This document shows, piece after piece, positions 880-23,572 of a stretch of 51,888 bases of DNA. The notes beneath the pieces are model-generated. The model was not told the origin of the DNA and searched no databases. It saw only the letters and a program-made list of their open reading frames with translations. The stretch's first letter is position 1. The number at the start of each line of letters is the position of its first letter. The position numbers were made by a program, and so were the translations under genes. Source of the stretch: Oscillospiraceae bacterium (GTDB taxonomy: Bacteria; Bacillota; Clostridia; Oscillospirales; Oscillospiraceae); assembly GCA_017397835.1 (NCBI GenBank), contig JAFQHV010000028.1, forward strand, positions 1 through 51,888, read 5' to 3'.

Positions 880-1794
880 ATGTATGACGTGATTATCGTG
901 GGCGGCGGCCCCGCCGGTCTGACCGCGGCGGTCTACGCTATGCGCGCCGGCAAGAGCGTGCTGGTCATCGAAAAAGCCGGCTTCGGCGGACAGATCGCCT
1001 TCTCCCCCAAGGTGGAGAACATCCCCGGCTTTACCACCATCTCCGGCGCGGAGTTTGCCGATAAACTGGCCGAGCAGGTGATGAATCTGGGCGCCGACGT
1101 GGAGCTGGAGTGCGTTACCGGCGTGGAGAAAACCGACGGCGGCTTTGCCGTTACCACCGAGGAGGGTTCCTCCTTCGAGGGCAAGGCGGTTATTTTGGCC
1201 AACGGCGTCAAGCACCGGATGCTGGGGCTGCCCGGCGAGGAGGAGCTGGTGGGCCACGGCCTGTCCTTCTGCGCCGTGTGCGACGGCGCTTTCTATACAG
1301 GACAGGAGACTGCCATGATCGGCGGCGGCAACTCCGCCCTGCAGGAGGCTCTGCTGCTGAGCGAGGTGTGCACCAAGGTCACCGTGGTGCAGAATTTGGC
1401 CACCTTCACCGGCGAGCAGAAGCTGGCCGACGCCCTGCTGGCCAAGGACAACGTAGAGGTGCGGTTCAGCACCGTGGTCAGCGAGTACGTCACCGAGAAC
1501 GGCGAGCTGACCGGCCTGAAGCTGCACAACGATGCCACCGGCGAGGACAGCGAGATCCGGGTGGACGGCGCGTTTTTGGCCGTGGGCCTGCAGCCGGAGA
1601 ATGAGAACTTTGCCCATCTGGTGGGCTTGAACCAGTACGGTTACTATGACGTGGACGAGTTCTGCGCCACCAAGACTCCCGGCATCTACGTGGCCGGCGA
1701 CTGCCGCAGCAAGTTCATCCGTCAGGTGACCACCGCCGCTGGGGACGGCGCCGTGGCCGCCATGGGCGCCTGCCGCTGGCTGGATCAGCAGTAA
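880..1794 (+). CDS. trxB: Thioredoxin reductase-like flavoprotein, atypical electron-donor site
   Basis: 304 residues. The start is ATG 880, 7 bp after GGGAGGA (866-872). The N-terminal FAD motif is GGGPAG (residues 8-13), the redox disulfide is CAVC (131-134), the second dinucleotide fold has GGGNSA (148-153), and the C-terminal FAD motif is in AGDCRSK. Length and domain order are those of low-molecular-weight thioredoxin reductase. The odd point is the stretch after beta strand TKVTVV: NADPH-dependent enzymes have HRRxxxR there, whereas this protein reads QNLATFTGEQ (171-180). That argues against ordinary NADPH use and for NADH or a ferredoxin-type donor, as known for some clostridial relatives; this is inference. 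It probably reduces the redoxin domain of the adjacent NrdD and cellular thioredoxin. Confidence 0.88.
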   Translation: MYDVIIVGGGPAGLTAAVYAMRAGKSVLVIEKAGFGGQIAFSPKVENIPGFTTISGAEFADKLAEQVMNLGADVELECVTGVEKTDGGFAVTTEEGSSFEGKAVILANGVKHRMLGLPGEEELVGHGLSFCAVCDGAFYTGQETAMIGGGNSALQEALLLSEVCTKVTVVQNLATFTGEQKLADALLAKDNVEVRFSTVVSEYVTENGELTGLKLHNDATGEDSEIRVDGAFLAVGLQPENENFAHLVGLNQYGYYDVDEFCATKTPGIYVAGDCRSKFIRQVTTAAGDGAVAAMGACRWLDQQ

Positions 1795-1810
1795 TTGAAT
1801 ACGTATGAGC

Positions 1811-1843
1811 AAACCGCCTGCCGATTTTGGCAGGCGGTTTTTG
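1811..1843 (+). terminator. Intrinsic terminator after trxB
   Basis: A 12-bp stem, AAACCGCCTGCC pairing with GGCAGGCGGTTT, with loop GATTTT and a T-rich 3' side. Nearly the same stem is reused after ileS at 40869-40898. Confidence 0.9.
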
Positions 1844-1880
1844 TGGGAGGAATTTCGCCCTGCGGGGCGGGATGGGGATG

Positions 1881-2142
1881 TTCCGCCTGAGGGCGGGTTT
1901 CTTTTGTCACTGAACAAAAGAAACCAAAAATCAGCATAGAAACCCATGGTTTCTATGTATTTCCTTTGGGCGGTATCCGTGGGGTAACACCCACACGGTC
2001 GGCGGACACCTCTGACTCTGCAGCCTCCTATTAGGCTGTCGCAGTATGTACCATCTGTAAATTGTTCTGTCTAACGACCTCCGCCGACTATTGTGCAAAC
2101 CTTCAGGTTTGTTGTAGGGGCGGCCTTTGGCCGCCCGCGGGC
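1881..2142 (+). repeat. Hairpin-rich intergenic repeat, copy 1 (inverted partner at 4135-4397)
   Basis: About 262 bp that align along their length with the reverse complement of 4135-4397. Shared blocks in order: TTCCGCC/GGGCGGG; a hairpin (1897-1907 with 1914-1924); a near-palindrome CATAGAAACC..GGTTTCTATG (1935-1957); CCGTGGGGT; CACACGGTCGGCGGACA; ATTAGGCTG; CCGCCGACTATTGTGCAAAC; a hairpin CAAACCT/AGGTTTG (2096-2111); and GGGGCGGCC/GGCCGCCC (2117-2136). The 1897-1924 stem differs between copies but still pairs in both. No coding potential is convincing. Together the two copies bracket mgtE. It could be a non-autonomous mobile element or a conserved structured DNA/RNA element. Confidence 0.85.
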
Positions 2143-2428
2143 GCGCACTGCGCGCCCCTGCACCATCAGTGTGGTGCACAGGAACGAAATACCCACCGCA
2201 GCAGGCACGTAGTGACCAATCTCATCCCACGCAAACCCCGGCGGCGTTTTGGTTCCTTTGCCGCCGTAGGCAAAGGAACTCGCCCCGCGGGGCGAAAACC
2301 TCTCCATCCGCATCTGCTGCGGCAGGTTTGTCCTTGTCGCCACCTCACCCGTCGTTTGCTGCGCGAATGCCACCCTCCCCTCAAGGGGAGGGCCGTTTTC
2401 CTGTTGCACAACTTTTTTTCCTCCGGGG
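2143..2428. other. Non-coding interval with short hairpins, no gene
   Basis: No credible coding frame. It holds several small dyads: GGGCGCGC/GCGCGCCC near 2140-2156, GCACCA/TGGTGC at 2160-2177, an 11-bp stem GTTCCTTTGCC (2252-2262) with GGCAAAGGAAC (2269-2279), the 14-bp palindrome CGCCCCGCGGGGCG (2281-2294), and CCTCCCC/GGGGAGG near 2373-2391. The 2252-2279 hairpin resembles in shape and flanks the hairpins of the two flanking repeats. The last dyad recalls the start of the element at 42387-42500. Confidence 0.6.
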
Positions 2429-2458
2429 TTGCAATTTTTATTTTCCCGGTGCTATAAT
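2429..2458 (+). promoter_or_regulatory. Sigma-A-type promoter of mgtE
   Basis: TTGCAA (2429-2434), 18-bp spacer, TATAAT (2453-2458) with an extended TG upstream of the -10. The 18 bases GTGCTATAATAAGCGTAT (2449-2466) recur exactly in the lspA promoter at 40931-40948. Confidence 0.8.
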
Positions 2459-2466
2459 AAGCGTAT

Positions 2467-2642
2467 CCCAAATTTTCAGGAGGTGGAAGCCGCGTGGAAA
2501 GCCGAAGTTGCCGGGACACAGACAGCTGTTATCACTTATGCCGGACCGCGCGGCCCGACCCTGCCCTTTAACGGGGGCAGTGGCCCTTCGCGCCTTTCTC
2601 CATCGTGATGACAGCCACGGGGAACGCCCGTGGCTTTTTTGT
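2467..2642 (+). promoter_or_regulatory. Structured leader with intrinsic terminator upstream of mgtE (candidate attenuator)
   Basis: The transcript from the mgtE promoter would have a leader of about 210 nt. It contains a strong Shine-Dalgarno (AGGAGG, 2478-2483), a short open frame, a hairpin CTGCCC/GGGCAG (2561-2566 with 2575-2580), and a terminator with a 9-bp stem AGCCACGGG/CCCGTGGCT (2613-2621 with 2627-2635) followed by six T, all before the mgtE start. CGTGG at 2493-2497 could compete for the left terminator arm. A terminator ahead of a magnesium channel gene implies attenuation. I do not recognise the M-box (ykoK) or yybP-ykoY consensus here. Confidence 0.6.
2494..2571 (+). CDS. Possible 25-residue leader peptide of the mgtE leader
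   Basis: A GTG at 2494 stands 10 bases after AGGAGG (2478-2483) and opens 25 codons ending in TAA at 2569-2571, inside the hairpin arm/loop at 2561-2580. The peptide has three Cys and ends ARPDPAL. An Asp/Pro-rich stretch in a leader peptide ahead of a magnesium transporter recalls enterobacterial MgtL, where such codons destabilise ribosomes at low magnesium. The similarity is only in kind. A second frame from GTG 2483 is also open for 41 codons but its start overlaps the Shine-Dalgarno. Translation is unproven. Confidence 0.2.
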   Translation: MESRSCRDTDSCYHLCRTARPDPAL

Positions 2643-2679
2643 GTCCCTTTTTCAAGCCAAGAGAAAGGGGATGTGCCAT

Positions 2680-4050
2680 ATGCACGAAAATTTTGATTTG
2701 GAGCTGCTGCTGGAACTGGTGGAGCAGAAGAAACTGCGCCAACTGCGGGAGATCCTGCAGGAAATGAACGAGGTGGACATCGCCTCGTTTCTGGACGAAC
2801 TGGAACCCGAGCAGCTTATCGTGGTCTTCCGCCTGCTGCCCAGGGAGCTGGCGGCGGAAGTGTTCGCCTACATGGAGGACATCGACAGTCAGCAGCGGCT
2901 TGTCAGCTCCCTGAGCGACCGGGAGCTGCGGGAGGTGCTGGACGAGCTGTACGTGGACGACGCCGTTGACATCATCGAGGATATGCCCGCCAATCTGGTC
3001 ACCCGTATCCTGCGCAACACCGACCCGTCCACCCGGCACCAGATCAATCAGCTTCTGAACTACCCCAAGGACTCCGCCGGCTCCATCATGACCACGGAGT
3101 ACGTCTTCCTCCACCCGGAGGATACGGTGGCCGAGTCCTTTGCCCGCATCCGCAAGGTGGGTTTGGACAAAGAGACCGTCTACACCTGCTACGTCACCAA
3201 AAACCGGATTCTGCAGGGCGTTGTTACCGTGCGCCAGCTGCTGCTGAGCGACTACGAAACCAAAATTGCCGACATCATGGAGACCAACGTGCTGTCCGTC
3301 AACACGCTGGACGATAAAGAGGACGCGGCCCAGCTGCTGTCCCGTTACGACTTCACCGCCCTGCCCGTGGTGGATGGGGAAAATCGGCTGGTGGGCATTA
3401 TCACCGTGGACGATGCTATGGACGTTATGGAAGAGGAGGCCACCGAGGACTTCGAGAAGATGGCGGCTATCCTCCCCTCGGATAAACCCTACCTCAAGAC
3501 CGGCGTGTTTGAAACGGCACGGGCAAGACTGCCCTGGCTGATGCTGCTGATGCTGTCGGCCACCTTTACCGGGGTCATTCTCACCGGGTTTGAAAGCGCC
3601 CTTGCCGCCTGCGTGGTGCTGACGGCGTTCATTCCCATGCTTACCGGTACCGGCGGCAACGCCGGGGCGCAGGCCTCCGTGGCTGTCATCCGCGCCCTGT
3701 CGCTGAACGAGGTGGAGTCTCAGGACCTGTGGGGCGTTATCTGGAAAGAACTGCAGGTGTCCGTCCTGTGCGGTGTGGCGCTGGGCGCGGTCAACTTCGG
3801 CAAGATGCTGCTCATTGACCGGCTGCTGCTGTCCAACCCCGAAGTCACGGTGGCCGTGTCGGCGGTGGTGTGCCTGACCCTGACCGTCACCGTCATCTGT
3901 GCCAAAGTGGTGGGCTGTCTGCTGCCCATGGCGGCGGAGAAGATCGGCCTTGACCCCGCCGTGATGGCCTCTCCCTTCATCACTACGGTGGTGGACGTGC
4001 TGTCCCTGCTGATCTACTTCGGCATCGCTGTGGAGCTGCTTGGATTGTAA
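2680..4050 (+). CDS. mgtE: Magnesium channel/transporter MgtE
   Basis: 456 residues. The start is ATG 2680, nine bases after AGAAAGGGG (2662-2670); an in-frame ATG at 2671 abuts that site. It carries Mg2+ (also Co2+) across the membrane, gated by cytoplasmic magnesium. Domains: helical MgtE_N repeat (about 1-130), two CBS modules (about 137-195 and 198-255), a linking helix, then a five-helix membrane domain from about 285. The conserved pore-region block GTGGNAGAQ is at 323-331. It is monocistronic: own promoter and leader upstream, terminator at 4060-4095. Two inverted repeat copies bracket the whole unit. Length and architecture are normal. Confidence 0.96.
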   Translation: MHENFDLELLLELVEQKKLRQLREILQEMNEVDIASFLDELEPEQLIVVFRLLPRELAAEVFAYMEDIDSQQRLVSSLSDRELREVLDELYVDDAVDIIEDMPANLVTRILRNTDPSTRHQINQLLNYPKDSAGSIMTTEYVFLHPEDTVAESFARIRKVGLDKETVYTCYVTKNRILQGVVTVRQLLLSDYETKIADIMETNVLSVNTLDDKEDAAQLLSRYDFTALPVVDGENRLVGIITVDDAMDVMEEEATEDFEKMAAILPSDKPYLKTGVFETARARLPWLMLLMLSATFTGVILTGFESALAACVVLTAFIPMLTGTGGNAGAQASVAVIRALSLNEVESQDLWGVIWKELQVSVLCGVALGAVNFGKMLLIDRLLLSNPEVTVAVSAVVCLTLTVTVICAKVVGCLLPMAAEKIGLDPAVMASPFITTVVDVLSLLIYFGIAVELLGL

Positions 4051-4059
4051 GAAACCGCG

Positions 4060-4095
4060 ACACCGCACGGAGCAAGGCTCCGTGCGGTGTTTTTG
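4060..4095 (+). terminator. Intrinsic terminator after mgtE
   Basis: A perfect 14-bp stem, 4060-4073 with 4077-4090, three-base loop AAG, then TTTTTGCTT. Confidence 0.93.
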
Positions 4096-4134
4096 CTTCT
4101 GCGGGGGAGTTCGCCCTGCGGGGCGACCTCCATT

Positions 4135-4397
4135 GCCCGCGGGCGGCCGAAGGCCGCCCCTACGACAAACCTGGAGGTTTGCACAATAGTCGGCGGGAGT
4201 TCGTTAGACAAGCAATGCTGCAGATGGTATTGAGTGCGGCAGCCTAATCGGAGCAGGCACAGTCAGATATGTCCGCCGACCGTGTGGGTGTGACCCCACG
4301 GAGGTCGCCAAAAGGAAGTACATAGAAACCATGGGTTTCTATGCGCCTTTTTCGTGTCTTTTGTGGCGTTACAAAAGACACCCGCCCGGGGGCGGAA
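4135..4397 (-). repeat. Hairpin-rich intergenic repeat, copy 2 (inverted relative to copy 1)
   Basis: The reverse complement of this stretch aligns with 1881-2142. The terminal hairpin (4354-4364 with 4371-4381) reads GTGTCTTTTGT/ACAAAAGACAC, where copy 1 reads GTTTCTTTTGT/ACAAAAGAAAC, so one base pair changed on both sides. The near-palindrome is 4321-4343, the CAAACCT/AGGTTTG hairpin 4166-4181, and the GGGCGGCC/GGCCGCCC hairpin 4141-4160, with GAA instead of AAA in its loop. Just outside (4109-4125) lies TTCGCCCTGCGGGGCG, also found just outside copy 1 (1854-1869). Confidence 0.85.
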
Positions 4398-4407
4398 TAG
4401 CCCCAAA

Positions 4408-4447
4408 ACAAAAACAGCACGGCGCACCCAAAGAGTGCGCCGTGCTG
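4408..4447 (-). terminator. Intrinsic terminator of the minus-strand RHH gene
   Basis: A perfect 12-bp stem CAGCACGGCGCA (4415-4426) with TGCGCCGTGCTG (4436-4447). On the minus strand it is followed by TTTTTGTTTTGG. It starts right after the stop codon of the gene at 4454-4621. Confidence 0.9.
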
Positions 4448-4453
4448 CTTGAA

Positions 4454-4621
4454 TTACTGCTGTTTTTGCTGCTCCCTGCGCTCCAGTCGCTCTAAATGGG
4501 CCTTGAGCACAAGGTTGATATAGCTGGAGAGTGGGCGGTCGTCCATCTCCGCGCGAAGCTTGATTTTCTCTAAAACAGGTTCATCAATCGTGATGCTGAT
4601 TTTTTCTTTCAATGGCTTCAT
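4454..4621 (-). CDS. Small ribbon-helix-helix DNA-binding protein
   Basis: 55 residues starting MKPLKEKISITIDEPVLEKI. The beta strand KISITIDEPVLEKIK, a turn DDRP, and the second helix SSYINLVLKAHLERLERREQ match the Arc/CopG ribbon-helix-helix fold, which dimerises and inserts the strand in the DNA major groove. The longer open frame upstream is non-coding: the ATG at 4621 begins the conserved fold. The Shine-Dalgarno (GGGTGAT) is weak. It is divergent from the small gene at 4712, and the space between holds dyads that could be its own operator. It is a likely autoregulator; the target is unknown. An antitoxin role is possible, but no co-directional toxin gene is present. Confidence 0.75.
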   Translation of the reverse strand: MKPLKEKISITIDEPVLEKIKLRAEMDDRPLSSYINLVLKAHLERLERREQQKQQ

Positions 4622-4640
4622 TGTAATCACCCATAAAAAA

Positions 4641-4689
4641 TATACCACCCAATAATATGAAATATTGCAATATCCTGCCGGGTAGTATA
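4641..4689. promoter_or_regulatory. Divergent regulatory region with nested dyads (candidate RHH operator)
   Basis: TATACCACCC (4641-4650) is mirrored by GGGTAGTATA (4680-4689), nine of ten positions matching. Between them is the perfect 12-bp palindrome ATATTGCAATAT (4662-4673). A plus-strand promoter TTGCAA (4665-4670) with 15-bp spacing to TATAAA (4686-4691) overlaps both. Symmetric sites between an RHH gene and its divergent neighbour suggest a shared operator. Confidence 0.45.
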
Positions 4690-4711
4690 AAATCTTACCG
4701 AGGTGATCGTT

Positions 4712-4903
4712 ATGATGAGCAATGAATTTGAAAAAGCCTTCAGCGATTTTTTGGACCGGCACGAGTATGACGAGGCGGAAGCCTATCTGTTTTCTATGGT
4801 TCGGCTGGCCTTTGCGGCCGGCTGGAAGGCGGCGGGGGGTACTCCGCCCCAATCGGAACGCATTTTTGAGCTTCTGCCCGGCGGAGCGGGCCGGGAGCCG
4901 TGA
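4712..4903 (+). CDS. Small hypothetical protein
   Basis: 63 residues, start ATG 4712 after GAGGTGAT (4700-4707); an in-frame GTG at 4703 lies inside that site. The protein is acidic at the N-terminus (MSNEFEKAFSDFLDRHEYDE), then has one amphipathic helix (AYLFSMVRLAFAAGWKAAGG) too polar to be a clear membrane span, and a Pro/Gly-rich tail. I do not recognise a family. It is transcribed divergently from the RHH gene and toward typA, 98 bp upstream, with no terminator between but a separate typA promoter. Confidence 0.6.
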   Translation: MMSNEFEKAFSDFLDRHEYDEAEAYLFSMVRLAFAAGWKAAGGTPPQSERIFELLPGGAGREP

Positions 4904-4929
4904 CTGCAGGATTTTTTGCGGCAGGGGGA

Positions 4930-4958
4930 TTGCGTTTTCGACAGCGGAGCGGTATAAT
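4930..4958 (+). promoter_or_regulatory. Promoter of typA
   Basis: TTGCGT (4930-4935), 17-bp spacer, TATAAT (4953-4958). The typA start is 43 bp further on. Confidence 0.8.
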
Positions 4959-5001
4959 ACCCTGTTGCAATATGTAAACCTGTGACAGAGGAGCTGTCTT
5001 T

Positions 5002-6828
5002 ATGAGAAACGAGAAACTAAGAAATGTTGCCATCATTGCCCATGTCGACCATGGCAAGACCACACTGGTGGACGGCCTGCTCAAGCAGTCGGGCGTGTAC
5101 CGCGACAATCAGGCGGTGGAGGACCGTGTGATGGACTCCAACGATCTGGAGCGCGAGCGCGGCATCACCATCACCGCCAAGAACACCGCCGTCCAGTACG
5201 GCGACATCAAGATCAACATCGTGGACACCCCGGGTCACGCCGACTTCGGCGGCGAGGTGGAGCGTATTTTGAAGATGGTCAACGGCGTTATCCTGCTGGT
5301 GGATGCCGCCGAGGGTCCCATGCCCCAGACCCGCTTCGTCCTGTCCAAGGCGCTGGAACTGGGCCACAAGGTCATCGTGGTGGTCAACAAGATCGACCGC
5401 CCCGACCAGCGCATTCACGAGGTCATGGACGAGGTGCTGGAGCTGCTGCTGGACCTGAACGCCACCGAGGAGCAGTTCGAGTCCCCTACCCTGTTCTGCT
5501 CTGGCCGACAGGGCACCGCCTCCTACTCCCCCGACGTGCCCGGCGAGGACCTGAAGCCTCTGTTCGATACCATCGTGGACTACATCCCCGCCCCCGAGGC
5601 CGAGGAGGACGCCCCCTTCCAGATGCTGGTGTCTGCCATTGACTACAACGACTTTGTGGGCCGTATCGCCATCGGCCGCATCGAGCGGGGTGTCATCAAG
5701 CAGAATCAGGAAATTGCCGTGTGCAACTACCACGCCGCGGACGAGGCGCCCAAGAAGGCCAAGGCCACCGCGCTTTACCAGTATGACGGCCTTGCCAAAG
5801 TCCCCGTGACCGAGGCCACCGCCGGCAATATCATCGCCATGAGCGGTATCGGTGAGATCACCATCGGCGATACCATTTGCGCCGCCGACTGTGTGGAACC
5901 TATGGAGTTCATTCAGATCTCCGCCCCCACCATCGAGATGACTTTCTCCGTCAACGACTCCCCCTTCGCCGGCAAGGAGGGCAAGTTCGTCACCAGCCGC
6001 CAGCTGCGCGAGCGCCTGTACCGCGAGACCATGAAGGACGTGTCCCTGCGCGTGTCCGACACCGACAGCACCGAGGCGTTCAACGTGGCTGGCCGGGGCG
6101 AGATGTCCCTGTCCATCCTGATCGAGACCATGCGCCGTGAGGGTTACGAGCTGCAGGTCTCTCCCCCCCGCGTGCTGTACAAGGAAATTGACGGCGTCAT
6201 GTGCGAACCCATCGAGCGCATGGTGGTGGATGTGCCTGCTGACTGCATCGGTGCAGTCATCGAGAAGATCGGCGCCCGCAAGGGCGACCTGCTGGATATG
6301 ACCCCCGTGGGCGAGCGGATGAAGGCCCAGTTCCTTGTCCCCTCCCGTGGTCTGTTCGGCTATCGCAACGAATTTTTGACCGACACCAAGGGCGAGGGCA
6401 TCATGGCCAGCGTCTTTGAGGAATACGCCCCCCTGAAGGGTGAGATCTCCCGCCGTTCCACCGGCTCTCTGGTGGCCTTTGAGACCGGCGAGGCTGTGAC
6501 CTACGGCCTGTTCAACGCTCAGGAACGCGGCGTGCTGTTCATCGGCGCCGGCACTCCGGTCTACGCCGGTATGATCGTGGGCGTGTCCCCCAAGCAGGAG
6601 GATATCTCCGTCAACGTCTGCAAGAAGAAGCAGCTGACCAATATGCGCGCCTCCGGCTCCGACGAAGCCCTGCGCCTGACCACCCCCCGCAAGATGAGTC
6701 TGGAGCAGTGTCTGGAGTTCCTGGCCGACGACGAACTGCTGGAGTGTACTCCCGAGAACCTGCGCCTGCGCAAGCGATTGCTGGACCACTCCGCCCGTAT
6801 GCGCGAGGCATCCAAGAAAAAAGGTTGA
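5002..6828 (+). CDS. typA: Ribosome-associated GTPase TypA/BipA
   Basis: 608 residues, the usual size. Translation-factor GTPase related to EF-G that binds the ribosome and helps large-subunit assembly and stress adaptation. G1 is AHVDHGKTT (residues 13-21), G2 RGITI, G3 [15 protein letters not shown]4 NKIDRPDQR; then domain II, EF-G-like domains III and V, and the TypA-specific C-terminal domain ([18 protein letters not shown], then [15 protein letters not shown]). Start ATG 5002 follows AGAGGAG (4987-4993). It has its own promoter and ends at a terminator shared with convergent mnmG. Confidence 0.97.
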
Positions 6829-6841
6829 TTGGATATAAGAG

Positions 6842-6877
6842 AAAAAAGCTGTCCTGCGAGAGCAGGACAGCTTTTTT
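6842..6877. terminator. Bidirectional terminator between typA and mnmG
   Basis: A perfect 16-bp stem, 6842-6857 with 6862-6877, loop GAGA. It begins AAAAAA and ends TTTTTT, so it works in both directions. The mnmG stop codon (6876-6878) overlaps its last bases. Confidence 0.93.
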
Positions 6878-8750
6878 ATTCTTCTTGCTGCTTCAACCAC
6901 ACCATCAGCACGGCCAGATCTGCCGGGGAGACGCCGGAGATGCGACCGGCCTGTCCCAAATTCAGGGGGCGGATCTTGTCCAGCTTCTGCCGGGCCTCCA
7001 GCCGCAGGCCGGCGATGGACAGATAGTCCGCGTCGGCGGGCAGGGTGCGCTCCTCCAGCCGCTGCATTTCGGCTACCTGCCGCAGTTGCCGGTCGATATA
7101 CCCCTGATACTTGGTGTCGATCTCCACCGCTTCCACCACGTCAGCGGGCAAATCGGGTCGATTGGGGTCAAAGGGGGCAAGGTCGGCGTAGGTCACGCCG
7201 GGGCGGCGCAAAAGGTCTGCAAGCCGCGCGCCGTCGGCGGCAGGCACCTCCCCCTTTTGAGTCAGGAACTCCGCCAAAGCTGGGGAGGGTGCGACGCCGG
7301 TATGCTCCAGGCGCTTTTGCTCCCGGGTGACGGCGGCATATTTTTCCTCCACGGCGGCAAGCTGTTCATCGGTCACAAGACCAAGCTCGTGACCAAACCG
7401 GGCCAGACGGCGGTCGGCGTTGTCCTGCCGGTGGAGCAGGCGGTACTCCGTGCGGCTGGTCATCATGCGGTATGGTTCGTTGGTGCCTTTCGTCACCAGA
7501 TCGTCGATGAGCACGCCGATATAGCCCTGATCCCGGCGGAGAATGAAGGGCGGACGGCCCAAAATTTTCAATGCGGCGTTGACGCCGGCCACAAAGCCCT
7601 GCACCGCAGCCTCCTCATAGCCGGAAGAGCCGTTGAACTGCCCCGCGCCGAACAGGCCGGGGACTTTTTTGGACTCTAATGTGGGGTGCAGCTCGGTGGG
7701 ATCCACGCAGTCGTACTCAATAGCGTAGGCGCAGCGGGTCATTTCGGCATGCTCCAAGCCGGGGATGGTGTGCAGCATTTCAAGCTGCACCTCCTCGGGC
7801 AGGGAGGAGGAGAAACCCTGTATGTAAAGTTCCTCGGTATCAAGACCCATAGGTTCCACAAAGAGCAAATGCCGCTCTTTATCCGCAAAACGCACCACCT
7901 TGTCCTCGATGGAGGGGCAGTAGCGGGGACCCACACCCTCAATGACCCCGGAAAAGAGGGGGGAGCGGTGGAGGTTGGCCCGGATGACCTCGTGGGTGGC
8001 CTGAGTGGTGGAGGTCAGCCAGCACACGGCCCGGTTTTCCGGGCGGTGGCCGGTGGAGAAAGAGAAGGGCAGGGCGTCCTCGTCCCCGGGCTGGACCTCC
8101 ATTTTGGAAAAGTCCACGCTCCGGGCGTTGACCCGGGGGGGCGTGCCGGTCTTGAACCGGCGGATGGACAGGCCCAGAGAAATCAAACTTTCGGTCAGGG
8201 GCAGGGCGGCGGCGAGCCCGTCCGGGCCGCTGTCCCGGACCACCTCGCCCACGATGGTGCGGCCCCCCAGATGGGTGCCGGTGGCGATGACGGCGGCCTT
8301 CACCGCGTAGGTGGCGCCGGTTTGGGTGACCACGGCGGAGACGGCGCCGTTCTCGGTGAGAATCTCTACCACCTCGGCCTGCTTGACCCACAGGTTTTCC
8401 TGCCGCTCCAGAGTATGCTTCATGACTTTCTGGTACTCCCGCCGGTCGGCCTGGGCGCGGAGGGACCACACCGCAGGGCCTTTGCCCCGGTTGAGCAGGC
8501 GATACTGGATGCAGGCCCGGTCCGCCGCCCGTCCCATCTCGCCGCCCAAAGCGTCCAGCTCCCGCACCAGATGCCCCTTGCCCGTGCCGCCGATGGCGGG
8601 GTTGCAGGGCATATTGCCCACCGCGTCCAGATTGACGGTAAAGCACAGGGTGCGCAGACCCATCCGGGCGGCGGCAAGTGCGGCTTCGATACCCGCGTGG
8701 CCAGCGCCGATAACGGCGATATCATATTGTCCGGCGTCGTATTTCGTCAT
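6876..8750 (-). CDS. mnmG: tRNA uridine-5-carboxymethylaminomethyl modification enzyme MnmG (GidA)
   Basis: 624 residues, typical for the family. With MnmE it installs the (carboxymethyl)aminomethyl group on wobble U34 of several tRNAs using FAD, NADH and methylene-THF. The N-terminal FAD motif is GAGHAG (15-20), followed by the MnmG signatures [22 protein letters not shown] and GTGTPPRV-type block [21 protein letters not shown], and the C-terminal MnmE/tRNA-binding helical domain ([25 protein letters not shown]). Start ATG 8750 follows AGAGGG on the minus strand. mnmE, often adjacent, is not in this window. Confidence 0.97.
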
Positions 8751-8783
8751 GGAGAAACCCTCTTTGCAGAAGAATGCACCAGT

Positions 8784-8812
8784 ATTTTATCACAGCCGCT
8801 CCTCGGGGACAA
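8784..8812 (-). promoter_or_regulatory. Promoter of mnmG
   Basis: Read on the minus strand: TTGTCC (8807-8812), 17-bp spacer, TAAAAT (8784-8789), 34 bp before the mnmG start. Confidence 0.6.
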
Positions 8813-19610: not shown

Positions 19611-21431
19611 ATGCGACCCATCTTTGATTCCCGTGACAGGCGGTATAAAACTCCATACGGCGCCGTGAAATCCGGGACGAAGGTGGACTTGCGCCTGCGC
19701 CCCCGGCGGCAGCTTGGCTTTTCCCGGGCGGTGCTGCTGGCGCGGTTCGAGATGGACGGCGACCGGACGGTGGAGATCGCCATGCCCTGGACGGATACCG
19801 ACCTTGGCTATGACTGCTTTGCCGGGCGGCTGGACACCGGAGATTACGTGGGCCTTGTGTGGTACAGCTTTCGACTGGAACGGCCGGATGGAAAACATGT
19901 GGATTTGGGCGAGTACCAGCTGACGGTGTACGACGGCGGCGAAGCCGTCCCGGATTGGTTTGGTCAGGGTGTGACCTATCAGATATTCCCTGACCGCTTC
20001 TTCCGCACCCACGCCCCCGACCCCATCGGCATGGTGGGCGGGCGAAGTGTCCACGAGGATTGGGACGAGGAGCCGGAGTACCGCCCCAACGAAAAGGGCG
20101 AAATACGAAACCGGGACTTTTTCGGCGGCAATTTGGCCGGAATTTGCGAAAAACTGGACTATTTGAAGAAACTCGGGGTGGAGACCCTGTACCTCTGCCC
20201 TATCTTTGAGGCGGCGGAAAACCACCGCTACGGCACGGCGGACTACAGCCGCATCGACCCCATGCTGGGGGAGGAAGCGGACTTTACGGCCCTGTGCGAC
20301 GGCCTGCACAAGCGGGGTATGCGCCTGATGCTGGACGGCGTGTTCAACCACACGGGCTTTGTCAGCCGCTACTTCAACGGCGACGGCGCCTATGATACCG
20401 TGGGGGCCAGCCAAAGCGAGGACTCCCCCTATCGCAGCTGGTTCAACTTCAAACACTGGCCCGACGAGTACGAAAGCTGGTGGGGTATTTACTCCCTGCC
20501 CGCGGTGAACGAGGCCGACCCCGGCTATCGGGACTTCATCTTCGGCGGCCGGGACAGCGTGGTCCGCCGCTGGCTGCGGGCCGGGGCCGACGGCTGGCGG
20601 CTGGACGTGGCGGACGAGCTGCCCGACGACTTCGTTCACGGTATCCATCAGGCTGCCCGTGAGGAGAAGCCGGATGCCGTGGTCGTTGGTGAAGTGTGGG
20701 AGGACGGCAGCACCAAAATTGCCTACGATGTCCGTCGCCGCCATCTGCTGGGTGGTCACTGCGACGGACTGATGAACTACCCCTTCCGCACGGCTCTGCT
20801 GGACTGGCTGCGGGGCGGCAGTGCCGCCAGCTTCATGGAAACCATGGAGACCCTGCGGGAGCATTACCCGCCCTTTGCCTACTACTCCGCCATGAACGCC
20901 CTTGGTACCCACGATACCCTGCGGGTGCTGACTCTGCTGGGCGCGGGGGACGGCGCGGGCATGAGCCGCCGGGAAAAGTCGGAGCATCGATTGAACAAAG
21001 AACAGCGCGCCCGCGGCAAGGCGCTTTTGATGACCGGCGCGGCGGTGCTGTTCTGCTTCCCCGGCTCCCCCACGGTGTACTACGGGGACGAGGCGGGCAT
21101 GGAGGGTTTTGAGGACCCCTTTAACCGCCGGACCTTCCCCTGGGGCAAGGAGGACAAACAGTTGACCCGGTGGTTTGCCGCTTTGGGCAAGATGAGAAAG
21201 ACCCTGCCCGCTTTGCGAAAGGGCGACATCCGCTATCTTGCGGCAGAGGACAGCCTGCTGGCCTTTGCCCGCACCGAGGGGAAACAAAAGATCCTGTGCG
21301 CCGCCAACGCCGGAGAGGACGAGGCGACCCTGCCCCTGCCGGGAAAGGCCAAGATACTGCTGGGCGACGGTCAGATACAAAAAGGCGTGCTGACCCTGCC
21401 CCCCCGGAGCGCGGCGATTTTGGAGCTGTAA
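19611..21431 (+). CDS. Cytoplasmic GH13 alpha-glycosidase (neopullulanase/cyclomaltodextrinase type)
   Basis: 606 residues, start ATG 19611 after GGAGG (19599-19603). It hydrolyses alpha-glucans or cyclodextrins imported as oligosaccharides. An N-terminal beta-sandwich domain (about 1-110) precedes the barrel. Conserved regions: DGVFNH (Asp242), GWRLDVADE with nucleophile Asp332, GEVWED with acid/base Glu361, and GTHDTLR with Asp435. No signal peptide or membrane segment, so intracellular. The N-domain and spacing match the maltogenic amylase/neopullulanase subfamily; exact substrate preference cannot be read off. It is last in the plus-strand string from recJ and ends at a strong terminator. 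Confidence 0.9.
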   Translation: MRPIFDSRDRRYKTPYGAVKSGTKVDLRLRPRRQLGFSRAVLLARFEMDGDRTVEIAMPWTDTDLGYDCFAGRLDTGDYVGLVWYSFRLERPDGKHVDLGEYQLTVYDGGEAVPDWFGQGVTYQIFPDRFFRTHAPDPIGMVGGRSVHEDWDEEPEYRPNEKGEIRNRDFFGGNLAGICEKLDYLKKLGVETLYLCPIFEAAENHRYGTADYSRIDPMLGEEADFTALCDGLHKRGMRLMLDGVFNHTGFVSRYFNGDGAYDTVGASQSEDSPYRSWFNFKHWPDEYESWWGIYSLPAVNEADPGYRDFIFGGRDSVVRRWLRAGADGWRLDVADELPDDFVHGIHQAAREEKPDAVVVGEVWEDGSTKIAYDVRRRHLLGGHCDGLMNYPFRTALLDWLRGGSAASFMETMETLREHYPPFAYYSAMNALGTHDTLRVLTLLGAGDGAGMSRREKSEHRLNKEQRARGKALLMTGAAVLFCFPGSPTVYYGDEAGMEGFEDPFNRRTFPWGKEDKQLTRWFAALGKMRKTLPALRKGDIRYLAAEDSLLAFARTEGKQKILCAANAGEDEATLPLPGKAKILLGDGQIQKGVLTLPPRSAAILEL

Positions 21432-21442
21432 TAGAACGAAAG

Positions 21443-21478
21443 AACCCGACCTGTGAGGATCACAGGTCGGGTTTTGTT
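21443..21478 (+). terminator. Intrinsic terminator after the GH13 gene
   Basis: A perfect 13-bp stem AACCCGACCTGTG (21443-21455) with its complement (21461-21473), loop AGGAT, then TTGTTGTG. It marks the left edge of the A+T-rich island. Confidence 0.9.
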
Positions 21479-21482
21479 GTGT

Positions 21483-21509
21483 ACCGACAAATTGGAATTT
21501 GTCGTTATA
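21483..21509 (-). repeat. Cassette-boundary repeat r1
   Basis: 27 bp containing the inverted repeat CGACAAATT-GG-AATTTGTCG (21486-21505). It matches r2 (22002-22028) at 24 of 27 positions and partly matches r3. The stop codon of the 21505-21993 gene lies 22 bases into the repeat, the same offset as the other gene's stop in r2. Confidence 0.75.
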
Positions 21510-21993
21510 TTTTATTTAGAAATTCTTCTGCTTGGATGCGATTTGAAAATATGTAAATATCTTTGTGAGAATATCTTTTCAATAGTTCTGTTACTTTTGG
21601 TCTGCTTTGTGAATTGTAGTTTTTTATAAACTCAATAAAATCTGCATCATCTTCATCGCTTTCTATCCAAGGCATATCACTTCTTGGTTTTCCTTTTCTC
21701 TCCTTAATACCATCAAGACAAACATCTAATGGATAGTCAAGAAAAATAACCGTATCACACTTTTTCATTCTCAATTCCATTGTGGAACCATAATTGCCAT
21801 CAATTATCCACTCACTATTTTCAATTATTTTTGATAGTCTATCAAGAAAAACTGATTTTTCAACAGTTGTTTTATCTTCATTCCAAAACAACATATCTAA
21901 ATGATACAGTGGAATTTTTGTGATTTTGTGTAATGACTTGGAAAAGGTACTCTTGCCACTTCCGGGACATCCGATCACAATAATTTTTTTCAT
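21505..21993 (-). CDS. Small P-loop kinase of the DNA topology modulation (FlaR)-like/adenylate kinase-like family
   Basis: 162 residues. The Walker A is GCPGSGKS (8-15), followed by YHLDMLFWN, WIIDGNYG, and VIFLDYPLDVCL with KERKGKPRSDMPW, the pattern of small nucleotide kinases annotated as topology modulation protein FlaR or adenylate kinase-like. The substrate is unknown and the FlaR name should not be taken as function. The region is strikingly A+T-rich (about a third G+C in the lines I counted) with many AAA, ATT and TTT codons, unlike all neighbours, so recent horizontal gain is likely. It is bounded by r2 upstream (which supplies GTAGGTAAG near the start) and r1 at its stop. Confidence 0.8.
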   Translation of the reverse strand: MKKIIVIGCPGSGKSTFSKSLHKITKIPLYHLDMLFWNEDKTTVEKSVFLDRLSKIIENSEWIIDGNYGSTMELRMKKCDTVIFLDYPLDVCLDGIKERKGKPRSDMPWIESDEDDADFIEFIKNYNSQSRPKVTELLKRYSHKDIYIFSNRIQAEEFLNKI

Positions 21994-22001
21994 ATTTACT
22001 T

Positions 22002-22028
22002 ACCTACAAATTGGGATTAGTCGTTATA
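22002..22028 (-). repeat. Cassette-boundary repeat r2
   Basis: 27 bp, 24/27 identical to r1. It separates the two kinase genes: it carries the stop of the 22024-22536 gene and, on the minus strand, the ribosome-binding region of the 21505-21993 gene. The imperfect inverted repeat is weaker than in r1. Confidence 0.75.
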
Positions 22029-22536
22029 ATTCAATGCTTATTTCGTATTTGTCTTCAATGAGTATATAGTTCACATTATACTTTTTGGCAAGGGATAACA
22101 CTTCTGCATTATCTGCCAACACACTCTCCATTGTGCACCATTCATCATCCGAACGATTCTCAATGGTATTTGCATATCCCTTTATGTCTGCAAAATGATT
22201 TCTTATATAGTCCTCACTCATCACCAAACAATAGTATTTAATATGTTCAAGATATTCCTGCTCAAAGTCTTTTTGCCAATCGAAAGGAATATAGCAACCT
22301 TCGACAATTAAGTTTTGCTTGTTCTCAATGGCGGTTTTAATCATTTCACGAACAATCGGCCACAGATATTCGACTAAATCCGCATCGTCCATAGGGGTAA
22401 GTTCTGTATTACCACTATGGATTAAGCCCATCTTTAGATGGTCTATTGACAGGTATGGATATTTATATTTTTCGAGCAATTTTTGGGCAAGTGCAGTTTT
22501 GCCTGTATGCGATGCTCCTGTAATTAAAATAATCAT
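22024..22536 (-). CDS. Small P-loop NTPase/kinase
   Basis: 170 residues. The Walker A is GASHTGKT (7-14), followed by YLSIDHLKMGLI and LIVEGCYIPFDW, a layout of small AAA-type or 2-phosphoglycerate-kinase-like kinases that phosphorylate small molecules. No substrate can be assigned. Like its neighbour it is A+T-rich and bounded by repeat copies (r3 at its start, r2 at its stop). On the minus strand r3 gives GTAGGTGAG seven bases before the ATG. It follows the AraC-type gene in the same direction and has no obvious promoter of its own, so expression may depend on readthrough. Confidence 0.78.
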   Translation of the reverse strand: MIILITGASHTGKTALAQKLLEKYKYPYLSIDHLKMGLIHSGNTELTPMDDADLVEYLWPIVREMIKTAIENKQNLIVEGCYIPFDWQKDFEQEYLEHIKYYCLVMSEDYIRNHFADIKGYANTIENRSDDEWCTMESVLADNAEVLSLAKKYNVNYILIEDKYEISIEL

Positions 22537-22542
22537 TATCTC

Positions 22543-22566
22543 ACCTACAAATTCTTATTTATCGGT
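22543..22566 (-). repeat. Cassette-boundary repeat r3 (diverged)
   Basis: Shares ACCTACAAATT (11 of 11) plus ATT, TCG and a final T with r2 at the same spacing. Its outer part is degenerate. It lies 11 bp from the stop codon of the AraC-type gene and marks the right edge of the A+T-rich island. Confidence 0.55.
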
Positions 22567-22577
22567 CTGTGTATCCC

Positions 22578-23426
22578 CTACGGCTGCATCTGCCGGGGGG
22601 TCATGCCGAACTCCCTCCGGAAGGCCCGGTGGAAGGCGGAGTAGTCCTGAAAGCCGCAGCGGGCGCAGGCTTCCTGAGCCGACACACCTCTTCGCAGCAT
22701 GCTGGCGGCGGCCAGCAGCCGCTTTTGGGAAATATACTGGTGGACGGGGAAGCCGGTCAGCTGCTTGAACCGGCGCATGAAGTGGTAGCGGCTGGTGTAG
22801 GCCTGCCCGGCCAGCACATCCACACTCAAAGCTCCGGATAGGTTGTCGTTGATATAGGACAGGGCCCGCTCGATTTTGGGGTCATGGACGCTGGCGGCCA
22901 TGTCCCGGTCGGTGTGGTCGTGGCCCATGTCCCGGTTGAGCTGGATGAGCAGCCGCAGAAAACAGCTCTGCGCCAGCAGATCCGCGCCAAAGCCCCTGTC
23001 CGAAACGGCGCGCTCCAATTCCTCCAGCAGCTGCTCCAGCACCTGCCGCTGCCCTTCGTCCGGGCGCATGAGGGCGAACTGCCGCTGCCGGGCCAGCCGG
23101 AAGCAGGCGGACAGGTCGGTCTGTTCCGTGCTGCCCGAGCGGAGAAAGCCGGGGTCCAAATAGATGACCACCCGTTCGTAGGGGTCGTCCGGGTCGATGA
23201 CCGGTTTGTGAATGAGATGGTGGCGCACCAGCAGCACGTCCCAGGGCTCCAAAAAATACTCCCGCCCCTCGATCATATAGCTGGCGGTGCCGGACAGGAA
23301 GATCACGATTTTATCAAACTCGTGGTAGTGGTACTCCATCTCCTCCACCCCCACGTCCCGCAGGTGGAACAGGCGAAACGGCTCGTGCAGATAGCCTTTT
23401 TTTTGATAGCCGGATGGCGCTTCCAT
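22578..23426 (-). CDS. AraC-family transcriptional regulator with N-terminal cupin domain
   Basis: 282 residues from ATG 23426; an upstream ATG at 23450 is in frame, but AAAGGGGGTGGGGG fits the inner start. The N-terminal cupin sensor (HYHEFDKIVIFLSGTASYMI, LEPWDVLLVRHHLIHKP) is followed by a C-terminal double helix-turn-helix: VDVLAGQAYTSRYHFMRRFK and QEACARCGFQDYSAFHRAFR, ending in the signature FGMTPRQM. A TATAAT reads on the minus strand at 23449-23454. It is divergent from the PLP enzyme-dapF-murE string across 146 bp, so it may control those genes, but the ligand and targets are unknown. Confidence 0.9.
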   Translation of the reverse strand: MEAPSGYQKKGYLHEPFRLFHLRDVGVEEMEYHYHEFDKIVIFLSGTASYMIEGREYFLEPWDVLLVRHHLIHKPVIDPDDPYERVVIYLDPGFLRSGSTEQTDLSACFRLARQRQFALMRPDEGQRQVLEQLLEELERAVSDRGFGADLLAQSCFLRLLIQLNRDMGHDHTDRDMAASVHDPKIERALSYINDNLSGALSVDVLAGQAYTSRYHFMRRFKQLTGFPVHQYISQKRLLAAASMLRRGVSAQEACARCGFQDYSAFHRAFRREFGMTPRQMQP

Positions 23427-23572
23427 GCCCCCACCCCCTTTCAAGGGCATTATACAGCACTTTTTGCAAAAAAGAAAGCAGAAAATGCGATGCTATTTGG
23501 AAAATGTTGCGATATACTGATGTTATAGTAAGATAGGCAGTGCGACCCTGTCGCCGAAAACGGGAGGTTTTT

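Follow-up and report, generated by a model that had tools for sequence, protein, structure and literature searches.

Integrons trade single genes in many bacteria, most of them Gram-negative, at attC sites whose ends read RYYYAAC ... GTTRRRY, and mobile insertion cassettes and miniature inverted-repeat transposable elements (MITEs) hold their gene or genes between inverted repeats without a transposase. Here we describe an island of two kinase genes, each ending inside a short repeat, in a 51,888-nucleotide stretch of an Oscillospiraceae bacterium (GenBank assembly GCA_017397835.1, contig JAFQHV010000028.1; hereafter the window); judged by analogy, the closest known kinds of system are the dif modules of Acinetobacter and the integrons. 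We consider it probable that the island represents two gene cassettes in a fixed platform that are exchanged by site-specific recombination. Both among close relatives and among unrelated flanks the cassettes differ in content, and the junctions fall within the site cores; we infer the class of enzyme, the direction and the expression. PMC13141974 describes the plasmid dif (pdif) modules of Acinetobacter, which involve XerC/XerD, as having short two-armed sites around a short core, with the flanking sites opposite in orientation, and reports single modules replaced between related plasmids with spacers that are the same or nearly the same. A review places integrons in several phyla, including the Firmicutes (PMC8618304).

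Like pdif modules, the units described below have flanking sites of opposite polarity, with exceptions in some arrays, and a module can be replaced while the cores are kept, as between the window and the sister-species genome G763. Unlike them, they have a site sequence that differs from the pdif sites tabulated in PMC13141974, they occupy chromosomal and phage platforms of Clostridia, and their genes are read one way from gene ends or promoters. The likeness to integron and CALIN (clusters of attC sites lacking integron-integrases) arrays, which are systems of attC and IntI, lies in same-direction rows of stand-alone genes with about one site per gene, in a stop codon at the site with the next start just after it, and sometimes in a promoter-like box before the first site. 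An earlier reading of the window from its letters alone (the sequence-only reading) had held that the repeats are not integron attC sites, and this stands: read directly against the attC consensus, the three repeats lack the RYYYAAC...GTTRRRY ends.

The island and the same locus in sister species

On the minus strand of the window, an AraC-family regulator gene (22578-23450) is followed by repeat r3 (22542-22572), kinase gene 2 (22024-22536), r2 (22001-22031), kinase gene 1 (21505-21993), r1 (21482-21512) and an intrinsic terminator (21443-21473), across which lies a plus-strand GH13 gene (19611-21431) that anchors the locus in relatives; the AraC and GH13 names are those of the sequence-only reading. 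The cassette genes lie between the AraC stop codon and the terminator, among three related repeats of about 25 bp, and are A+T-rich, with a G+C content (GC) of 0.303 (gene 1) and 0.357 (gene 2) against 0.633 and 0.628 for the GH13 and AraC genes and 0.607 for the window minus the island. Gene 1 encodes a 162-residue P-loop kinase that matches NCBIfam PRK08118 (E 3.1e-45, 154 bits, not reaching the family cut-off of 215) and has a single weak shikimate-kinase match among PDB sequences. The 170-residue P-loop kinase of gene 2 has weak Pfam Zeta_toxin and AAA_33 matches and no match among PDB sequences.

A repeat finder returns r1, r2 and r3 as its first family, with identities to r1 over 31 nt of 87% for r2 and 68% for r3; r1 and r2 are identical at 24 of 27 positions, and the TAA stops of both kinase genes start 22 bases into their repeat. 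The right-type site r1 (TAACGACAAATTCCAATTTGTCGGTA) holds the stop codon of gene 1 (21505-21507) and contains an inverted repeat, CGACAAATTGGAATTTGTCG. The inter-cassette site r2 (TAACGACTAATCCCAATTTGTAGGTAAG) holds the stop codon of gene 2 (22024-22026) and the region before the ATG of gene 1, and the left-type site r3 (ACCGATAAATAAGAATTTGTAGGTGAG), a few bases past the AraC stop, holds the region before the ATG of gene 2; just upstream of the next ATG, r2 reads GTAGGTAAG and r3 reads GTAGGTGAG. The order r1-gene-r2-gene-r3, the agreement of r1 and r2 and the position of the stops within them, the supply of the region before the next ATG on the minus strand, the inverted repeat in r1 and the low G+C of the island had all been noted in the sequence-only reading, and the positions of open reading frames (ORFs) and repeats and the base composition bear them out. 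Its unit of one gene and one site is correct in outline; beyond that claim, left and right sites differ in type. Folding the repeats as single-stranded DNA, which it had proposed, gave a fold for r1 (-7.5 kcal/mol, z -4.4), a weaker one for r3 (-2.7 kcal/mol, z -2.5) and none better than shuffles for r2 (z 0.2). There was no Rfam match in 20400-23500.

The AraC protein was searched in 61 genomes of the genus, that of the window included, and 16 matched at E 1e-30. In G763 (AraC 99% identical), identity with the window runs through the end of the AraC gene into the left core (...GATAAATAAGAATTTG / ...ACAGACCGATAAATAAGAATTTG) and resumes at AAATTCCAATTTGTCGGT / AAATTCCAATTTGTCGGTACACAACAAAACCCGACC, the terminator; between these points both kinases are replaced by one different gene, encoding a 105-residue DUF3784 protein (GC 0.346). 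A run of 45 identical nucleotides stops in the left core, and one of 15 starts in the right core. The junctions of the swap fall inside r3 and r1, the platform keeping its cores TAAGAA (left) and TTCCAA (right), and the terminator, found with a 14-pair stem by a terminator scan, has the same sequence after the different cassette and marks the right edge of the platform. The DUF3784 gene has a cassette relative in locus L145 (69% DNA identity). In G764 (AraC 92%, with one in-frame TGA) a third gene occupies the locus, with decayed sites and a GC of 0.52; it has 78% DNA identity to a gene of L104 assigned to the Pfam CDP-alcohol phosphatidyltransferase family. Seven of the more distant orthologues (L210-L215 and L217; about 70-75% identical) have other DNA after the AraC gene. 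Comparing strains between the GH13 terminator and the AraC gene, as the sequence-only reading had suggested, revealed different content in G763 and G764, but not the empty site that it had envisaged, no truly empty platform being present among the sister loci compared.

Sites, shared units and phage platforms in other genomes

Strict-motif searches were nearly empty beyond the island, both in the family and in the organism's own 1.84-Mb genome, where the 25-nt motif (up to 3 mismatches) occurs at r1 and r2 only (reversed control 0), and relatives were therefore drawn from collection scans, one of which gave no matches. Scanning one genome per species for ACAAATWMSAATTTGTMGG yielded at least 114 stretches, which include chance and REP-like (repetitive extragenic palindromic) matches; by a hand count of record titles, 88 of the 114 listed come from Clostridia or other Bacillota, many from herbivore guts. 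Most matches of a first viral scan look like chance or repeated marine-phage sequence.

The matches listed, leaving out duplicates L143 and L147, comprise 29 AAG-core and 69 TCC-core sites. An ORF starts within -10..45 nt after 17 of the 29 AAG sites (at 10 no ORF was seen on that side) and after 7 of the 69 TCC sites (none seen at 18), and a stop codon lies within -10..30 nt before 36 of the TCC sites (none seen at 13) and 9 of the AAG sites. Of the AAG sites, 13 are preceded within 14 nt by a sequence that agrees with TATAAT at 5 or more of its 6 positions. An automatic search found 52 site-framed ORFs, of which 15 were discarded by eye as chance site matches and 37 retained as cassette-like; with this choice by eye, and with inter-cassette sites counted both as right and as left, the core ends in G at 32/37 left sites and 7/36 right sites (Fisher p 6e-9), and 28/36 right cores end in C. 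Left sites mostly have the polarity opposite to that of right sites; this difference in site type is new in this analysis. Sites also cluster near contig ends (22 of 113 loci within 250 nt, 3.2 expected; L051 was left out), as if assemblies branch at them. As a separate observation, dispersed REP-like palindromes with the same core occur in G696 (RUG13043; for example L089 at 3740 and 5564), G700 and G688, with 252, 116 and 56 strand matches respectively (reversed control 0-1), although a palindrome may match on both strands, so that the copies are fewer; those of G696 lie partly within units of about 150 nt.

Pairwise comparison of the loci gave 104 alignments of at least 120 nt. Without the duplicate loci L042, L143 and L147, and with contig edges excluded, there are 162 alignment ends, and 59 of them have a site no more than 25 nt away in both loci; when the sites were shifted 1000 times, such ends numbered 0.17 on average and never more than 3. 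Stronger evidence than these counts comes from seven pairs of loci that each share a unit carrying a gene and bounded by sites at its two ends (L020/L048, L047/L058, L053/L082, L069/window, L115/window, L101/L145 and L145/L208); the flanks are unrelated in L115/window, L069/window and L101/L145. The protein of kinase gene 2 has relatives in L115 (87%), L236 (85%), L069 (85%) and L057 (59%). Left and right sites frame the gene in the first three, which represent three genomes, and in L057 the right site is clear and the left only weak. The DNA of the kinase 2 unit is 85% identical to the window in L115 and 82% in L069. Further relatives lie on plasmids of Ruminococcus albus (beside prfA) and Paraclostridium bifermentans (known as a gene list). 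Swapped content and shared units bounded by sites support the modular gene exchange at non-attC sites that the sequence-only reading had proposed: the motif has other copies, which flank different genes in other Clostridia, shared genes switch neighbours at it, and the island is not conserved gene for gene at host composition. Two side observations concern these loci. A kinase family starting MKTLYMIGG or MKTLYLIGG follows sites in viral contigs and chromosomal loci (L360, L362, L340, L135 and L057), and does so in the sister species G764 too. A 3.6-kb stretch including a site is 99.9% identical between Lachnospiraceae AC2012 (L108) and Pseudobutyrivibrio ruminis AD2017 (L147), probably through recent transfer.

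Some loci are longer arrays. That of a Lachnospiraceae metagenome-assembled genome (MAG) from horse faeces (L057) holds the kinase 2 relative, a NUDIX gene (named by Pfam, the others by reading), small membrane, flavodoxin-like and second kinase genes, and further genes, with a site seen by eye at 6 of the first 7 junctions. Lachnospiraceae AC2012, whose record title is not marked as a MAG, has at least two multi-gene rows, with Pfam matches to chloramphenicol acetyltransferase, aminoglycoside 3-N-acetyltransferase, aminoglycoside-2''-adenylyltransferase, GNAT, isochorismatase and Na/H exchanger families; its arrays L228 and L230 are predicted to encode three antibiotic-modifying enzyme families. 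Judged by family matches, the cassette genes appear to be varied small enzymes: within the 25 commonest of 94 families, 66 cassette and array proteins include 8 GNAT proteins and 3 methyltransferases, with kinases, nitroreductases, GrpB and others at 2 or 3 each. In L344 (40-1520) and L071 (1795-3275), two genes with a GC of about 0.40 lie between two inverted sites beside a gene of 0.64, and by eye the two genes resemble a sigma factor and its partner.

As in integrons, some junctions are double sites, of about 45 nt (L146, L084, L145, L071 and L057), laid out as right core, GAACAGTTMG or similar, and left core; unlike in attC, the GTTRRRY sequence that some of them contain (GTTAGAC or GTTAAAC) is central and RYYYAAC is absent. 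An idealised double site folds at -14.7 kcal/mol. The idea that double sites are conserved attC-like hairpins was dropped, several of them (L252, L253, L255 and L259) not being visibly complementary.

The site occurs in temperate phages as well as in chromosomes. The related viral contigs L047 and L048 differ in their cassettes and agree in the genes that flank them: metallopeptidase-like and deformylase genes precede the cassettes on one side, and serine recombinase genes lie across from them. The contigs are 89% identical before the cassettes and 99.97% identical after them, homology resuming at the right site; the jump in identity marks a mosaic junction there. The cassette row of L020 includes the GNAT unit of L048 at 88% identity. 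Searches with five large serine recombinases detected a gene of this type in 8 of 48 viral loci, each of which has a platform (L012, L020, L047, L048, L362, L364, L366 and L369); since L012 is an identical piece of L020, L047 and L048 are close relatives and the queries were taken from such contigs, we regard the co-occurrence as a lead rather than a test. The other 40 viral loci are mostly chance-like, with real-looking sites beside genes in L021, L360 and L361, where there is little DNA on one side. The large serine recombinases of the platform phages are likely phage integrases. Like morons, the phage units lie near the integrase end; unlike morons, they have the boundary sites of chromosomal cassettes and some gene families in common with them. 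Platform-bearing temperate phages would be probable vehicles between hosts. In another viral contig, L357 (IMGVR_UViG_3300032167_007702), nine related sites (ACCGAYAAATCGGAATTTG and variants, up to 2 mismatches) lie between genes at 1588-8797; they may be sites of this kind that take part in phage gene mosaicism.

Proposed exchange mechanism and competing explanations

We propose that the platform is a fixed frame between the AraC stop codon and the terminator, which would provide the outer half-sites, ACCGATAAATAAG on the left and TCCAATTTGTCGGT plus the terminator on the right. A cassette would start with a right half-site (AATTTG-TAGG) just before the ATG, contain one gene or sometimes two, and end with a left half-site (GACAAAT) at or soon after the stop codon. 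The inverted arms of about 9-12 bp around a short asymmetric core, and the mostly opposite polarity of left and right sites, suggest conservative site-specific recombination by a recombinase acting in trans. Because the different cores TAAGAA and TTCCAA stayed with the platform in the sister-species swap, recombination of left with left and right with right sites between molecules may replace the gene between them, by analogy with cassette exchange between two mutually non-reacting sites; the tandem rows suggest an alternative route, in which a circular cassette would be joined into a site. The upstream gene, or a promoter-like box that precedes the left site, would supply transcription, and the terminator would end it.

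The enzyme was sought among known recombinase families. The sequence-only reading had called for a linked recombinase, and the window's contig has no PF00589 or PF00239 match; the four tyrosine-recombinase and one resolvase-type matches of the genome are all on other contigs. Site-bearing genomes have PF00589 in 18 of 18 and PF00239 in 17 of 18. Pfam scans covered 219 of 281 flank ORFs, the other 62 having been moved to the cassette set or left out (for example, copies in L048). Among the 25 commonest families per set, serine recombinases account for 5 members and the tyrosine integrase family (Phage_integrase) does not appear; as the families shown are the 25 commonest per set, a single linked enzyme could be missed. 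A large serine recombinase beside the platform in L101 and G712 was set aside as the cassette enzyme, because L054 has the same flank with a tRNA-Pro gene where the recombinase's element starts. Across 12 genomes a dif-like pattern was matched about as often as its reversed control; neither G000 nor G763 had a match. A dedicated recombinase, if there is one, might be among the twin large serine recombinases that the platform phages carry.

Several observations weigh against exchange by a dedicated recombinase. The contig of the window carries no recombinase of the two families searched, none is linked to chromosomal platforms in the data examined, and no excised or circular cassette was observed. 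Within the island, r2 is barely palindromic, and kinase 1 has no relative at E 1e-4 in the fetched loci. The strict motif, whose search in relatives the sequence-only reading had proposed, is rare in the organism's own family (2 of 300 genomes, its own included), and in a sample of the class it occurs in 22 of 391 genomes against 16 for the reversed control. The polarity figures carry the by-eye choice and double counting given above, and some internal sites break the rule (e.g. L020, L075, L116, L130 and L145). Of the 59 alignment ends at sites, 11 come from the REP-like units of about 150 nt of one genome (L050, L081, L089, L122 and L137) and one from two cyanobacteria, and the shift test ignores that the loci were collected by site. 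Contig breaks near sites may arise from repeats alone.

The sister-species flanks are 95% and 89% identical, which is sufficient for homologous exchange, so that this case taken alone could be explained without any special enzyme. More generally, the sites could be terminator- or REP-like hairpins at which genes change when flanks are exchanged in a RecA-dependent way or when short identical hairpins happen to recombine. The terminator-like form of r1 on the plus strand and the many same-core copies in G696, G700 and G688 fit this explanation, which we nevertheless consider unlikely: units with both ends at sites are common to the unrelated flanks named above, left and right cores differ systematically, and the sites vary in sequence between arrays, so that long identity is not what is conserved.

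Transposition offers two other routes, both less probable still. The units might be mobile insertion cassettes with terminal inverted repeats (ACCGAYAAATnnGAATTTG) and a transposase in trans; here, too, genes lie between inverted repeats with no transposase in the unit, the outer arms of left and right sites are mutually inverted, and no transposase is among the 25 commonest families of the cassette and array proteins. This is very unlikely, as single sites are shared by neighbouring genes in tandem rows and the outer halves persist in a fixed platform as its content changes, and target duplication is not clear, with ACACAG/ACACAA at the window and none seen by eye at L058, L119 and L139. More improbable again is single-strand transposition of hairpins of the REP/RAYT (REP-associated tyrosine transposase) or IS200/IS605 type, with genes carried between them. 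Like REP elements, the sites are short and palindromic, lie at gene ends and are abundant in some genomes, and Y1 transposase matches occur in 10 of 15 genomes that bear sites; however, 5 of 15 have none, REP-rich G696 among them (MAGs may be incomplete), and the sites show a polar left/right pairing around genes. Of 14 Y1 loci, the one with motif copies close by is in REP-rich G700, where the Y1 copy is broken, and no intact Y1 gene was seen beside them, leaving the link to Y1/RAYT unsupported.

Implications for gut Clostridia and their phages

We found no description of such a cassette system in the literature searched, which included few subscription papers and did not extend to preprints. 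Going beyond the island itself, we tentatively suggest that gut Clostridia and their temperate phages may share polar sites of about 25 bp, of a new sequence family, at which a dedicated recombinase in trans would exchange single genes at the ends of transcription units, which would give these Bacillota a counterpart of the integron. The pair of sister species makes the mechanism testable. The predicted content of the AC2012 arrays suggests that such arrays can hold genes of resistance-type families. If the proposal is true, an equivalent of the integron with different sites would explain part of the small-gene variation in gut Clostridia and their phages.
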